Assembly (NCBI GenBank): GCA_002729235.1
Contig: PBTY01000053.1
Location: 1,436-37,408, forward strand
DNA: 35,973 bases
DNA from: Rickettsiales bacterium
GTDB taxonomy: Bacteria; Bacteroidota; Bacteroidia; Cytophagales; Cyclobacteriaceae
Direction of reading: 5' to 3'
The translations under genes were made by a program, and so were the position numbers. How positions within the stretch are numbered: position 1 is the first letter of the stretch; every line of letters begins with the position of its first letter. Shown here one piece after another: positions 9,275 to 12,893 of the stretch. The notes beneath the pieces are model-generated. The model was not told the DNA's origin. It worked only from the letters and a program-made list of their open reading frames with translations, and did not search any database.

Positions 9275-9314
9275 GCCTGAGTGGCGGACTTGTCCGCTGA
9301 TGAAACTGGGAGAC
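9275..9314 (+). pseudogene. tRNA-Leu 5'-half remnant, copy 1, with palindrome in the D region
   Basis: Begins GCCTGAGTGGCGGA, identical to the first 14 bases of the intact tRNA at 9390, and resumes as AACTGGGAGAC (tRNA: AACTGGTAGAC) after an insertion. The insertion completes a palindrome, GCGGAC (9284-9289) and GTCCGC (9292-9297). The copy stops at the end of the D arm; no anticodon stem follows. Confidence 0.8.
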
Positions 9315-9337
9315 AGTTTTTGATCAAGCATTAAAAA

Positions 9338-9377
9338 GCCTGAGTGGCGGTCCCGATAACTATCGGGAGGTAGACGC
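9338..9377 (+). pseudogene. tRNA-Leu 5'-half remnant, copy 2, with palindrome in the D region
   Basis: GCCTGAGTGGCGG matches the intact tRNA, then the palindrome TCCCGATAACTATCGGGA (9351-9368) replaces the AACT of the D loop, and GGTAGACGC resumes the tRNA sequence. It is truncated before the anticodon stem, 12 bases ahead of the intact gene. Confidence 0.85.
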
Positions 9378-9389
9378 TCAATGCAAGAA

Positions 9390-9471
9390 GCCTGAGTGGC
9401 GGAACTGGTAGACGCGCACGACTCAAACTCGTGTTCCGCAAGGAGTGCCGGTTCGATTCCGGCCTCAGGTA
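9390..9471 (+). tRNA. tRNA-Leu, anticodon CAA
   Basis: Cloverleaf read by eye. The acceptor stem is GCCTGAG (9390-9396) with CTCAGGT (9464-9470), including a G1-U72 wobble, and the discriminator is A9471 as expected for leucine tRNAs. The anticodon stem CACGA/TCGTG (9417-9421, 9429-9433) holds loop CTCAAAC with anticodon CAA at 9424-9426. A class II variable arm TTCC-GCAA-GGAG (9434-9445) and the T arm GCCGG-TTCGATT-CCGGC follow. CCA is not encoded, as is usual in Bacteroidota. It reads UUG codons. It lies in a transcript with remnants of itself on both sides. Confidence 0.96.
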
Positions 9472-9476
9472 CTTAG

Positions 9477-9507
9477 AAGGCCTTCTCATTTTGAGAAGGC
9501 CTTTTTT
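9477..9507 (+). terminator. Intrinsic terminator of the intact tRNA-Leu
   Basis: AAGGCCTTCTCA (9477-9488) and TGAGAAGGCCTT (9492-9503) form a perfect 12-bp stem with loop TTT, then a T-run. It starts 5 bases after the tRNA discriminator base. Confidence 0.93.
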
Positions 9508-9528
9508 GTTTAAGACTATAAAAAATCG

Positions 9529-9574
9529 AGGAGTGCCGGTCCGACCAAGCGTTGGCCCGGTCCTTCCTCAGGTA
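9529..9574 (+). pseudogene. tRNA-Leu 3'-half remnant, copy 1, with extended T arm
   Basis: GAGTGCCGGT matches the variable-arm end and T stem of the intact tRNA, and TCCTCAGGTA-like sequence matches its acceptor 3' strand. In between the T loop is replaced by an extra hairpin with arms CCAA (9545-9548) and TTGG (9552-9555). It is followed directly by its own terminator (9576-9609). Confidence 0.8.
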
Positions 9575-9575
9575 C

Positions 9576-9609
9576 AAAAACCTCATTCTGAAAAGAATGA
9601 GGTTTTTTG
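9576..9609 (+). terminator. Terminator after tRNA 3'-half copy 1
   Basis: AACCTCATTCT (9579-9589) and AGAATGAGGTT (9594-9604) form a perfect 11-bp stem capped by a GAAA tetraloop, with a T-run at 9603-9608. The sequence is unrelated to the terminator of the intact tRNA but holds the same position relative to the tRNA end. Confidence 0.88.
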
Positions 9610-9630
9610 TTTTTAGGGAGAAAAGAAAAT

Positions 9631-9692
9631 CAAGGAGTGCCGGTCCGACAGAACGTCTGCCCGGTCCTCCCGATTATTATCGGGATCAGGTA
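9631..9692 (+). pseudogene. tRNA-Leu 3'-half remnant, copy 2, with two inserted palindromes
   Basis: CAAGGAGTGCCGGT matches the intact tRNA variable and T arms, and TCAGGTACTTAG matches its 3' end and the bases beyond it. The T loop carries a hairpin with arms CAGA (9649-9652) and TCTG (9656-9659). The acceptor strand is interrupted by TCCCGAT/ATCGGGA (9668-9674, 9679-9685), the same palindrome family as in 5'-half copy 2. A decayed terminator-like hairpin follows at about 9697-9728. Confidence 0.82.
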
Positions 9693-9753
9693 CTTAGACC
9701 TCTTTTAATCTCAGATTATCAGTTTTTTGTTTTTTAGGACGTACCACAATAAA

Positions 9754-9775
9754 TGTGGTTTGATTTCTCTCGGTA
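9754..9775 (+). pseudogene. Heavily decayed tRNA 3'-half remnant, copy 3
   Basis: TGTGGTTTGATTTCTC at this site closely matches TGTGGTTTGATTCCTC in 3'-half copy 4 (11027-11042), which is itself a diverged T arm. On its own it would not be recognised as tRNA-derived. It lies just ahead of the REP-like doublet at 9789. Confidence 0.45.
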
Positions 9776-9788
9776 GCTAGAGAACTCA

Positions 9789-9866
9789 GCCATATTTGGT
9801 GTTGTCACCAAATATTTAGCACTGAACCAGGATGATTTGTTGGTGATAAAACCATCAAAAACCAGG
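9789..9866. repeat. REP-like palindrome doublet, copy A (second hairpin decayed)
   Basis: First hairpin: ATATTTGGTG and CACCAAATAT around loop TTGT. About 20 bases on, TTGTTGGTGATAA begins a second hairpin, whose right arm has decayed (ACCATCAA in place of CACCAACAA). The same two-part layout is better preserved in copy C at 10914. Confidence 0.75.
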
Positions 9867-9895
9867 GATACGAAATGCAGCGAGTTTTAGATTGG

Positions 9896-10522
9896 CTATT
9901 GTCTGCCAATATCAAATAACAAACTTGCACTTAGCCCTAGAGATTCGTTTGAGTAGTACTTTGGGTAAGGCGAGATGATCGCTAGGGTATAAATGCCCAA
10001 TAATCTGAATTCAATTTTCTCAGTTGGATACCCCAAACCGACAGACACATTTGAGTCTAACGAGAAGTCCCTCTCATATCTACCGACCTGTTTGAATCTT
10101 GAGGTAAGTCCTAATCCTGTAATTGGTCTAATTCTGCCCACAGTCCATGATCGGATAACCGAAACAGGGATTTCGACGTATTTCAATCTTATTTCTTCCT
10201 CGGTAGGATCGCAAACAGGACAGTAATAAAGGGCATCAAATTTCTGCTTCGATGCACCCAGGCCTGCTTGTAAATACATATTGTTGTTCCTAACATATTC
10301 AAATAGAATTCCTGATTTTGTTGTGTGAACTTTATCCTCTATTAGATGATATCCAGTATTATAACGAGAAGTTCTATTATGCTCAATAAAGTTGTCCTGA
10401 CCAAGAATTTGTTGAGAATGGGAGTAGTATGCACCAATTTTTAAAAAAGGCTCCATACGCTCCTGAGAATAGCCTTTAAAGAAGACCATGTGGATCAAAA
10501 TAAGTATTAGAAATCTTATCAT
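9896..10522 (-). CDS. Outer-membrane beta-barrel-like protein, function unknown
   Basis: A 208-residue protein with a signal peptide (MIRFLILILIHMVFFKGYSQ) and alternating strands typical of the small porin-like outer-membrane barrels of Bacteroidota: FLKIGAYYSHS, MYLQAGLGASKQKF, IRPITGLGLTSRF, VSVGLGYPTEKIEFRLLGIY and LGLSASLLFDIGRQ. Two cysteines (CPVC) lie near residue 106, just before the TEEEIRLKYVEIPVSV strand common to this fold. It sits between two REP-like elements (9789 and 10716) with no partner gene, so it is probably cargo of the tRNA-Leu hotspot. No specific ligand or role can be assigned. The family is inferred from strand pattern. Confidence 0.72.
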   Translation of the reverse strand: MIRFLILILIHMVFFKGYSQERMEPFLKIGAYYSHSQQILGQDNFIEHNRTSRYNTGYHLIEDKVHTTKSGILFEYVRNNNMYLQAGLGASKQKFDALYYCPVCDPTEEEIRLKYVEIPVSVIRSWTVGRIRPITGLGLTSRFKQVGRYERDFSLDSNVSVGLGYPTEKIEFRLLGIYTLAIISPYPKYYSNESLGLSASLLFDIGRQ

Positions 10523-10715
10523 AGGCTCAGTAAGATTAATGGTAGTATTTTAATCATAATGGATATAATTTATCAGGATATCCTAAAGTTATTGATTGTG
10601 CCTAACTTTTCCATGATCTAATTCTCGTTTATTGTAAGATTCGATATTTTCATAAAGAGGTTCAAGTATTCATTTTTTATAAAAGCACATTTCATCTTTC
10701 TCTGGCATATTTTCT
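10523..10715. other. 193-base AT-rich spacer within the hotspot
   Basis: No convincing coding frame. The last 40 bases (10676-10715) weakly resemble the sequence preceding REP-like copy D near 12980-13007, suggesting the ywbE-upstream duplication may extend slightly further left than the palindrome. Confidence 0.35.
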
Positions 10716-10743
10716 GCCATATTTGGTGTTATCACCAAATATT
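10716..10743. repeat. REP-like palindrome, copy B
   Basis: ATATTTGGTG and CACCAAATAT around loop TTAT (other copies TTGT), preceded by GCC. It is followed by about 84 bases of leader and then the truncated ywbE copy, the same arrangement as copy D before intact ywbE. Confidence 0.85.
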
Positions 10744-10826
10744 ACTCTCAAGTATGTCTGTGATATCATTCATTAATCCTTCAGAGAATTCCAATAACTT
10801 TAAACCCCAAGCATTAAACCTTAGCC

Positions 10827-10949
10827 ATGTCAAAGTCAGGTCAGAAGCGAAGTAATATCAAAATAGGAGCAGAAGTAGAGATTGTGGAGAAGCACAATCA
10901 GCGAACCGGAGAGCCCTTGCCATATTTGGTGTTGTCACCAAATATTTAA
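10827..10949 (+). pseudogene. Truncated duplicate of ywbE
   Basis: The first 29 codons are near-identical to intact ywbE at 13121: both contain GAEVEIVEKHNQRTGE, with differences at Pro2 to Ser and Glu12 to Lys and a few silent changes. At 10914 the match ends abruptly and the frame runs into the REP-like doublet, giving 11 unrelated residues and a stop at 10947. The upstream 80-odd bases are also shared with the intact gene (for example the ATAACTTTAAACCC stretch). At about 90% identity it is not a very recent tandem copy, or it came from a relative. A functional 40-residue product is unlikely. Confidence 0.88.
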
Positions 10950-10993
10950 CGCACAACCTAGCTTGTTGGTGATAACACCAACAAAGGCAAGGG
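10914..10993. repeat. REP-like inverted doublet, copy C, with outer arms (REPIN-like)
   Basis: Outer arms CCCTTGCC (10914-10921) and GGCAAGGG (10986-10993) enclose two hairpins: ATATTTGGTG/CACCAAATAT with loop TTGT, and TGTTGGTG/CACCAACA with loop ATAA. The second is an inverted relative of the first, since its core TTGGTGATAACACCAA is the reverse complement of TTGGTGTTATCACCAA found in copy B. The whole can fold as a three-way junction. It abuts the break in the ywbE copy, and a T-run (10998-11003) follows, so it may also terminate transcription. Confidence 0.82.
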
Positions 10994-11012
10994 AGGCTTT
11001 TTTGTTTTAGAT

Positions 11013-11077
11013 GTTCCGTAAAGAGTTGTGGTTTGATTCCTCCCGTACCGATCGCTATCGGGAATCGGGGTCAGGTA
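11013..11077 (+). pseudogene. tRNA-Leu 3'-half remnant, copy 4, with palindrome
   Basis: GTTCCGTAAAGAGT corresponds to the variable arm of the intact tRNA (GTTCCGCAAGGAGT), TGTGGTTTGATTCC to the T arm, and TCAGGTACTTAG to the 3' end and beyond. The acceptor strand is interrupted by a palindrome-bearing insert (CCGAT/ATCGG at 11048-11052 and 11057-11061). Its 3' flank matches that of 3'-half copy 2, so these two share ancestry. Confidence 0.8.
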
Positions 11078-11082
11078 CTTAG

Positions 11083-11168: not shown

Positions 11169-12893
11169 ATGGATTCCATCGCCCATTTTCTCAGAATTAA
11201 GAAATACCTATCTGATAAATATAAATCCCGTATTAATTCGGCTCTATTTAAAGGAACCGATTTAGATAAGGATAATCAATTTTATACCAGAGCTATGATT
11301 GCTCAATGCCTTGAGGGATTATGCCATCATAAAATTGATAATATTGAGGATCTAATCACTGATGACCAGCATGATAACGGCATAGACTTTGTCTATCGTG
11401 ACACTGAAAACTTTGTTTTGTACATAGGTCAATCTAAATGGTCTAAAGATGGAAATATTTCAATTGCTAAAAATGATTTTTTGAATTTCCAGAATGGTTT
11501 TCAGGATTTGATAAACCTCAACTTTGATAAGTTTAATGATGCTGTTAATCAAAAGGCTGAAATAATTACCGATTGCATTAGCTCTATCGATTATTCAATT
11601 GTAGGTCTTTATTGCTATGCTGGATATCATGACATCTCGGATGAGATCAAAAATCTTATAGATACTTCTTTGAAAAAACTCAATAGTATCAATTGGACAT
11701 TTGATATTAAGTGCGTTAATCAAAAATTTTTATACCAGTCAATCTTGCAGGTAGAGGATGGTTATTCAATTGACCTTAAGGAGACCAAACTCTATAACTA
11801 CGGATTACATAAACATCCTTTTACCGCTGTATATGGTGAAGTCGATGTGATTTCATTGGCTTTGCTCTGGGATAAATACGGCAAATCTATTTTGAATAAA
11901 AATTTAAGAAGATTCAAAGGGTCAACTTCCGTTAATCAGGGAATCAAACACACTTTATCAAGTGAACCTGATTACTTCTGGTATTACAATAATGGTATCA
12001 CTGTTCTTTGCAGCAAAATTAAGCGCTATCCTGAGTCAGCAGATAATACCTCAACTGGTAAATTTGATTTTTTGGGGAGTAGTGTTGTAAATGGAGGGCA
12101 GACGCTAGGAAGTATTGGCGAAGCATATAAACTCTATCCAGATGATATTATCGATTCAGGAGCAAGAGTTCAAATCAGGTTTATTGAATTGTCGGAAGAA
12201 TCTGAGTATATCAATAAAATCGCAAGATTTAACAATACCCAAAATAGAATAGAGAATAAGGATTTTGCTTCCTTGGATCCATTACAAGAAACATTGCGTA
12301 AGCAATATCTTTTAATGGGGATCCAGTACGTTTATAAAACTGGCGATGGTATTCTAGATCCAAATAAAGGGTTTAGTATCAATGAGGCTTTAGTGGCTAG
12401 AGCTTGTCTTACAAGTATTGAACATTGCGCTCAAATTACTCGTGAGGTAGGTTTTGTTTGGATTGATATTAGTAAACCACCTTACACAGCTTTATTTCAT
12501 CCAGATTTGGATCTCAAGTTGATGTGGAATTGTGTTAAGGTGGTTCGTTGTTGTGAATCTATTTTAAGACAACATGTTAGTGATAACTTTACTAACAAGA
12601 AATTAAGTTTAATATGTCAATCTGGTGAAAATTTCATAATGTATAAGGTATTGAATTATTTGAGTGTAAACACTTTATCTCAATCGGAGAATTACATGCC
12701 CAAAACAGCAGAATTGAAAAAGGAAATTGTACAGATAGTTAAGATAACCGAAGATATCCTAGAGAAGAATTTCTCAAGTGATCACATAACTAATGTTTTT
12801 AAGAGTGCTAAAAAATGTGATCGTATTTCGTCAGCAATTGACAATCAATTGGGCAGAGAGTATAATTTATTCAACCCTCTACCCAATAATTAG
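11169..12893 (+). CDS. AIPR-family abortive phage infection protein with PD-(D/E)XK-like N-terminus
   Basis: A 574-residue protein of the AIPR family (PF10592), linked to abortive infection against phage. Family hallmarks seen: WYYNNGITVLC at 271-281, VVNGGQT at 306-312, RFNNTQN at 353-359 followed by KDFASLDPLQ. The N-terminal 130 residues contain GID (Asp73) and GQSKW (Gln88, Lys90) with a helix carrying Glu49 before them, the spacing of a restriction-endonuclease-like nuclease core. That part is my inference. The gene is distinctly AT-rich: sampled 60-base lines have 20-37% GC against 42-45% in the decarboxylase nearby. A small inverted repeat CTAGT/ACTAG (11156-11168) touches the start codon. 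It stands alone between a tRNA remnant terminator and a gene scrap, as expected for hotspot cargo. Confidence 0.88.
   Translation: MDSIAHFLRIKKYLSDKYKSRINSALFKGTDLDKDNQFYTRAMIAQCLEGLCHHKIDNIEDLITDDQHDNGIDFVYRDTENFVLYIGQSKWSKDGNISIAKNDFLNFQNGFQDLINLNFDKFNDAVNQKAEIITDCISSIDYSIVGLYCYAGYHDISDEIKNLIDTSLKKLNSINWTFDIKCVNQKFLYQSILQVEDGYSIDLKETKLYNYGLHKHPFTAVYGEVDVISLALLWDKYGKSILNKNLRRFKGSTSVNQGIKHTLSSEPDYFWYYNNGITVLCSKIKRYPESADNTSTGKFDFLGSSVVNGGQTLGSIGEAYKLYPDDIIDSGARVQIRFIELSEESEYINKIARFNNTQNRIENKDFASLDPLQETLRKQYLLMGIQYVYKTGDGILDPNKGFSINEALVARACLTSIEHCAQITREVGFVWIDISKPPYTALFHPDLDLKLMWNCVKVVRCCESILRQHVSDNFTNKKLSLICQSGENFIMYKVLNYLSVNTLSQSENYMPKTAELKKEIVQIVKITEDILEKNFSSDHITNVFKSAKKCDRISSAIDNQLGREYNLFNPLPNN

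Follow-up and report, generated by a model that had tools for sequence, protein, structure and literature searches.

Organelle DNA of yeast and Volvox carries mobile GC clusters, small palindromic elements that belong to organelle genomes and that, among the matches listed in our literature search, showed no tie to tRNA halves. In bacteria, repetitive extragenic palindromic (REP) elements are short dispersed palindromes, some of which Y1-type transposases are believed to move (PMC3733652), Rickettsia palindromic elements (RPEs) comprise several palindrome families that enter tolerated sites (PMC3767692, PMC10969869), and partial tRNA genes beside canonical ones have been described (PMC9897764). 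Here we analysed a stretch of 35,973 nucleotides (nt) of a marine bacterium, from contig PBTY01000053.1 of assembly GCA_002729235.1, referred to at its full length as the window, in which an intact tRNA-Leu(CAA) gene is flanked by partial copies of its own two ends, with short palindromes set as caps into their loops. One of the caps is an 18-nt palindrome, P (TCCCGATARCTATCGGGA). Among the matches listed from the open-access literature, no description of hairpin-capped tRNA halves was found.

P shares with REP elements and their REP-associated tyrosine transposases (RAYTs) the nature of a short dispersed palindrome. A Y1 transposase, as membership among the REPs requires, was present in 12/12 genomes, a non-specific trait that also occurred in 5/14 controls. 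Unlike REPs, P has few copies (7 places in 6.5 Mb) and is concentrated in tRNA copies; its assignment to the GTAG or CGTC REPs was rejected, as neither tag stood beside P in 134 distinct contexts, a test that covers P only. With the RPEs the locus has in common that several families of caps exist; RPEs are about 100-150 bp long and known for insertion into open reading frames (ORFs), whereas the present caps are shorter and lie mostly in tRNA-type loops. In contrast to the partial tRNA genes as outlined in PMC9897764, both ends of the gene are copied here, each on its own side, the loops are capped, tandem arrays occur, and no integrase was seen among the proteins tested (see below).

Copies of tRNA-Leu ends in the window

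Local alignment confirmed that an uneven set of tRNA-Leu pieces, all in one orientation, surrounds the gene, with two 5' copies upstream and three 3' copies plus one weaker piece downstream, as listed here with window coordinates:

9275..9314, + strand: 5' copy (a) of tRNA-Leu, local alignment score 33.0, beginning at tRNA nt 1
9338..9380, + strand: 5' copy (b) of tRNA-Leu, score 37.9, beginning at nt 1
9390..9472, + strand: intact tRNA-Leu, anticodon CAA (ARAGORN; Rfam RF00005, 54.6 bits)
9477..9503, + strand: terminator-like hairpin of the intact tRNA-Leu
9522..9575, + strand: 3' copy (a), T arm and acceptor 3' strand, score 39.0
9631..9693, + strand: 3' copy (b), local alignment in two pieces, scores 31.5 and 18.2
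about 9750..9772, + strand: putative additional, decayed 3' copy similar to copy (d), to which it aligns with a score of 30.1
11012..11078, + strand: 3' copy (d), score 32.5

The best flank scores of 37.9 upstream and 39.0 downstream compare with maxima of 29.1 and 28.8, respectively, in 1000 mononucleotide shuffles each. For the piece at about 9750-9772, 0/300 shuffles reached its score against copy (d), and alignment with tRNA-Leu itself gave no match. All copies are in direct orientation, and all clear ones carry an insert. The pieces had initially been annotated as broken halves of the gene; they are indeed partial copies, though not clean halves cut at one point, since their loops hold extra sequence.

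In 5' copy (a), which is immediately preceded by the native leader and has an ortholog in the related genome G002, the D loop is broken by an insert other than P (about 9288-9303). In 5' copy (b), the tip of the D loop is replaced by P (TCCCGATAACTATCGGGA, 9351-9368). On the other side, 3' copy (a) has a hairpin insert inside its T loop (about 9545-9563) and its own terminator-like hairpin behind it (9576-9607), with a fold z of -6.8 for 9520-9612, and 3' copy (b) combines a T-loop hairpin (about 9649-9667) with a P-like palindrome (9668-9685), followed by a weaker terminator-like hairpin. The two T-loop hairpins share a common frame; their stems differ, each matching itself. Copy (d) holds a P-like palindrome with one mismatch (11046-11063) and is again followed by a terminator-like hairpin. 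The tRNA-Leu gene lacks the encoded CCA that some tRNA genes possess (Val in the window's genome, G000).

Farther downstream, two-hairpin elements in direct repeat (9789-9868 and 10919-10994) bracket a small ORF (9896-10522); G002 has a similar two-hairpin pair on the downstream side of this tRNA (locus L002, about 1362-1430).

Survey of tRNA flanks in the genus

The flanks of 108 tRNAs of G000, G002 and G005, which belong to the same genus (Marinoscillum set), were aligned with their own tRNAs independently of P, with intact tRNAs masked. This survey leaves out the dense tRNA clusters on the short contigs C37, C110 and C112 of G000, which are perhaps a mobile element. Self-copies with a score of at least 30 were found upstream of 17/108 and downstream of 26/107 tRNAs, compared with 0.5% when flanks of other tRNAs served as control. 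At a score of at least 28, all 23 upstream matches (22 distinct copies) begin at nt 1-3 and contain an insert of at least 5 nt, placed after nt 12-19, in the D-loop region, in 21 of them; the 3' end is retained in 25/34 downstream matches. The first inserts follow anywhere from nt 7 to nt 29, and the copies still begin at nt 1-3. For the 104 of the 108 tRNAs that passed a flank-length filter, copies at the threshold used were present on both sides in 9 cases, upstream only in 8, downstream only in 17 and on neither side in 70.

By eye, starting from places of P, the same anatomy was recognized at Gly, Cys, His, Asp, Ser, Ala, Thr, Val, Met and Arg tRNAs, and some of the copies are decayed. At tRNA-Gly the site is empty in G002 and G005 and filled in G000 and G004, with 56 nt added in G000. 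The repeated same-orientation events that the initial annotation had proposed are supported, and a scatter of half copies over the genome in company with a dispersed repeat, which it had regarded as speaking against its own reading, was in part found. A history of integration specific to tRNA-Leu is weakened, as copies flank many tRNAs of the genus. The splitting of one tRNA per event would be expected to leave equal numbers of 5' and 3' pieces unless some were lost, and is likewise weakened by their unequal numbers.

Cap palindromes

The inserts in the tRNA copies are largely short palindromes of about 14-25 nt, some reaching 30, and at least three families recur, namely P, B and the C-type cap (CCTGCC..GGCAGG). 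All 7 places of P in the window's genome (at most one mismatch) fall in tRNA copies, two of which (Cys, Asp) were judged by eye; a variant of P also forms the tip of a tRNA-Asn terminator (by eye). Palindrome B (CGGTTCGCCGNNGC, about 16 nt) caps Arg, Ser, Phe, Met and Val copies. It was found at 27 places in 5/6 genomes, 13 of them in tRNA copies by eye; for 9 of these 13, the fetched stretch also includes an intact tRNA. B occurs elsewhere as well, outside tRNA copies. One B lies within a Y1-transposase ORF of the window's genome (L297:1501-1514), which is apparently interrupted.

Distribution across Bacteroidota

A search of 84,980 species genomes with a pattern of D stem, P and GG returned 90 stretches, whose titles name one Chlorobiota, two only a "bacterium", and otherwise Bacteroidota or groups within them. 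The tRNA context was checked for 80/90 stretches: a tRNA on the same strand lies downstream in 84/107 pattern matches (80 loci), in 69 cases within 250 nt and mostly with 8/8 first bases identical; of the other 23 matches, several lie close to where the fetched stretch ends, and for some there is no tRNA in the vicinity. Within the order, the exact P pattern was present in 2/291 genomes. A generic pattern for D-arm inserts matched 6/198 genomes and so did not exceed its reversed-pattern control, at 15 genomes, which makes the feature a patchy one.

Long tandem arrays occur in UKL13-3, where 39 of 59 P places are in tRNA copies, arranged as 11 before tRNA-Asn, 7 before tRNA-Leu(TAG), 13 behind tRNA-Leu(TAA) and 7 behind tRNA-Thr(GGT), with 1 further P before tRNA-Thr(TGT). 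In the RNase P RNA gene, another P (L280:502-519) sits at the apex of the first hairpin, which we take to be helix P3. The thirteen capped 3' halves behind tRNA-Leu(TAA) are units of 63 bp (L270:410-1220). A lipoprotein-like ORF follows them, and inspection by eye showed no terminator in between.

Boundary of the copies

For the boundary, the copy nearest to the tRNA was taken at each locus, with at least 5 of the first 8 nt required to match (69 loci, 67 used); a gapped test on the outermost copies likewise comprised 67 loci. P-capped 5' copies are 93-100% identical to their genes between nt 1 and the cap, and 88-100% identical over the nine bases that follow the cap. Leader identity amounts to 0.30-0.52 as far as position -5 and to 0.56-0.78 over the last four bases; in the gapped test, leader similarity of the outermost copies was above the null 95th percentile in 20/67. 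A step at nt 1 would imply either that the tRNA part was kept after an older duplication or that copies were made from nt 1 onward. A target duplication of fixed length was rejected as its cause, given the variable insert positions and constant starts noted above, and gene conversion alone is weakened, as it would not be expected to yield so sharp a step.

The same locus in relatives

At tRNA-Leu(CAA), the number of copies varies among relatives, as had been anticipated: two 5' copies are present in 2/6 genomes, one in 1, and none was seen in 3. G000 and G002 have in common the pair of 5' copies and one or more 3' copies; a single 5' copy is present in G005 and a single 3' copy in G004. In G001, the tRNA lies where a contig ends, and a pair of 3' copies is found at the end of another contig; in G003, no copies were seen at tRNA-Leu.

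The predicted variation of the downstream DNA between species was also borne out, with AIPR/AbiU-like, AbiEi and zeta-toxin-like genes. In G000 an AIPR/AbiU-like ORF precedes a pyridoxal-decarboxylase gene, and in G004 AbiEi_2 and zeta-toxin-like ORFs stand before the same gene; in G002 this place is taken by an ORF of 500 aa without family, before a gene taken as pyridoxal-decarboxylase by position and size only, and G005 has a zeta-toxin-like ORF behind tRNA-Leu. The AIPR family ORF of the window (11169-12893) is AbiU-like in PADLOC, which was run on 8 proteins and is not built for integrases; the genes at this place differ per species and are partly defence-like. No integrase family was detected with Pfam among 10 proteins around tRNA-Leu in 5 genomes, a subset of the ORFs there.

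Origin of the capped copies

The explanation we tentatively favour, at somewhat short of an even chance, is that partial duplications of tRNA ends were kept once their loop had been filled by a mobile palindrome, and that uncapped copies were lost. Duplication of the 5' end would leave a copy upstream, and duplication of the 3' end, often together with trailer and terminator, a copy downstream, with one full gene remaining in either case. A free half next to the gene it came from would probably disturb the way the genuine tRNA folds or is processed, and halves may therefore persist mainly when a short palindrome fills the loop. The fillers would be several unrelated families of small mobile palindromes, often settling at the tips of stem-loops; capped units would then multiply in tandem, and older units decay. 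Support comes from the directional excess of self-copies, the inserts in all 23 upstream matches, the recurring cap families, the concentration of P in tRNA copies and its arrays, P at the tips of an RNase P RNA helix and a terminator, and the filled and empty tRNA-Gly sites. These features are observed, whereas an origin by duplication, the harm done by uncapped halves and the mobility of the palindromes are inferred.

A 3' copy whose trailer resembles that of the gene should be recent. In the Marinoscillum set, 9/24 downstream 3' copies have a gene-like trailer (above the null 99th percentile), and 8/9 of these are capped, against 5/15 of the others (5/5 recent copies by strict identity). 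In a second set, the trailer is at least 19/20 identical in 11/20 3' copies, of which 9/11 (5/7 loci) are capped, 5 of the 9 belonging to one array. Folding predictions, calculated at equilibrium and with doubtful multiloop energies, gave the native acceptor stem a mean probability of 0.88 in the absence of a copy, 0.27 when a capped copy is present and 0.07 when the copy is uncapped, the value being higher with the capped than with the uncapped copy in 47/61 loci. These predicted values weakly support partial duplication followed by capping.

Several observations weigh against this explanation. In 52/67 loci the leader is at background (at most 0.52, the null 99th percentile) while nt 1-13 match in 659/676 positions, about 5 nt per locus of this match being forced by the search pattern, and a step of this kind at nt 1 is not what duplication with neutral decay predicts. 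Some recent copies are uncapped (L197 Val, L172 Pro, G005 Asn). Most recent copies are already capped, which would suit a single coupled reaction as well. 5' and 3' copies co-occur at the same tRNA above chance (9 against 4.2 expected, p = 0.011), and 19/59 P places of UKL13-3 are outside tRNA copies and RNase P RNA, and a number of these lack a recognizable stem. Judging by the predicted stem probabilities (0.27 against 0.88), capped copies too would do some harm, unless the model gives the competing pairing too much weight.

Unlikely, though the alternative that survives best, is a selected RNA module, in which the capped 5' half would be transcribed within the leader, retain the acceptor strand and thereby compete for the 3' strand of the tRNA as a folding switch or decoy, with capped 3' halves acting likewise downstream. 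The step at nt 1 in the 52 loci with background leader would be in keeping with selection, as would the match of the nine bases behind the cap in the same loci (439/468), the predicted pairing of the copy strand with the acceptor 3' strand (0.53), and the copy at L196, which tracks a change in the anticodon stem of its gene. Across seven Asn loci that were aligned, L196 among them, the spacer has diverged and the copy has stayed the same, but the search pattern demands most of this match, wholly so for the first 33 nt. Also against such a module are its patchy presence or absence between species of one genus, the 70/104 tRNAs without a copy and the decayed copies. Its extension to a recurrent module in some Bacteroidota appears improbable: co-transcribed front or back halves of the same tRNA, kept identical between nt 1 and the end of the D arm and prevented by the cap from folding as tRNA, would tune or protect tRNA maturation, and arrays would be dosage variants.

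Rather improbable, too, is one coupled reaction, in which an enzyme acting on single-stranded hairpins, such as a Y1/HUH transposase, would copy a tRNA arm and place the palindrome in its loop at once. Besides the early capping of recent copies, the Y1_Tnp matches in all 12 genomes tested would suit it, as would the motif YTC, which adjoins P in 14/26 and 10/24 distinct contexts (tRNA contexts included). It is opposed by the several unrelated cap families, the lack of the GTAG and CGTC tags beside P, the occurrence of Y1_Tnp in control genomes, and the failure to find an element with defined ends.

A series of mobile elements integrating into tRNA-Leu, with displaced fragments left behind and a replacement tRNA brought in at each landing in the anticodon region, as the initial annotation had suggested, is already largely refuted and has a very slight chance of being right: the species-specific, partly defence-like cargo would agree with it, but no integrase was among the proteins tested, an element integrated at a tRNA should displace the 3' end only, whereas 5' copies lie upstream here and at the tRNAs counted above and often occur without 3' copies, 5' and 3' numbers are unequal, similar copies stand beside many other tRNAs at tens to hundreds of bp from the gene, and the caps are short palindromes shared by many unrelated tRNAs.

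Significance

Capped halves do not look like integrase scars; they look like an undescribed way in which tiny mobile palindromes and tRNA duplications shape genomes. Tiny palindromic elements and tRNA gene fragments, which have been studied apart, are joined here in one repeated anatomy of many Bacteroidota lineages, with loops of tRNA copies, a terminator and an RNase P RNA helix as habitats of the palindromes. For annotation, this means that tRNA halves need not mark scars of integrated islands, and the natural arrays of up to 13 units offer test material for the effect of adjacent halves on the folding and supply of tRNAs.

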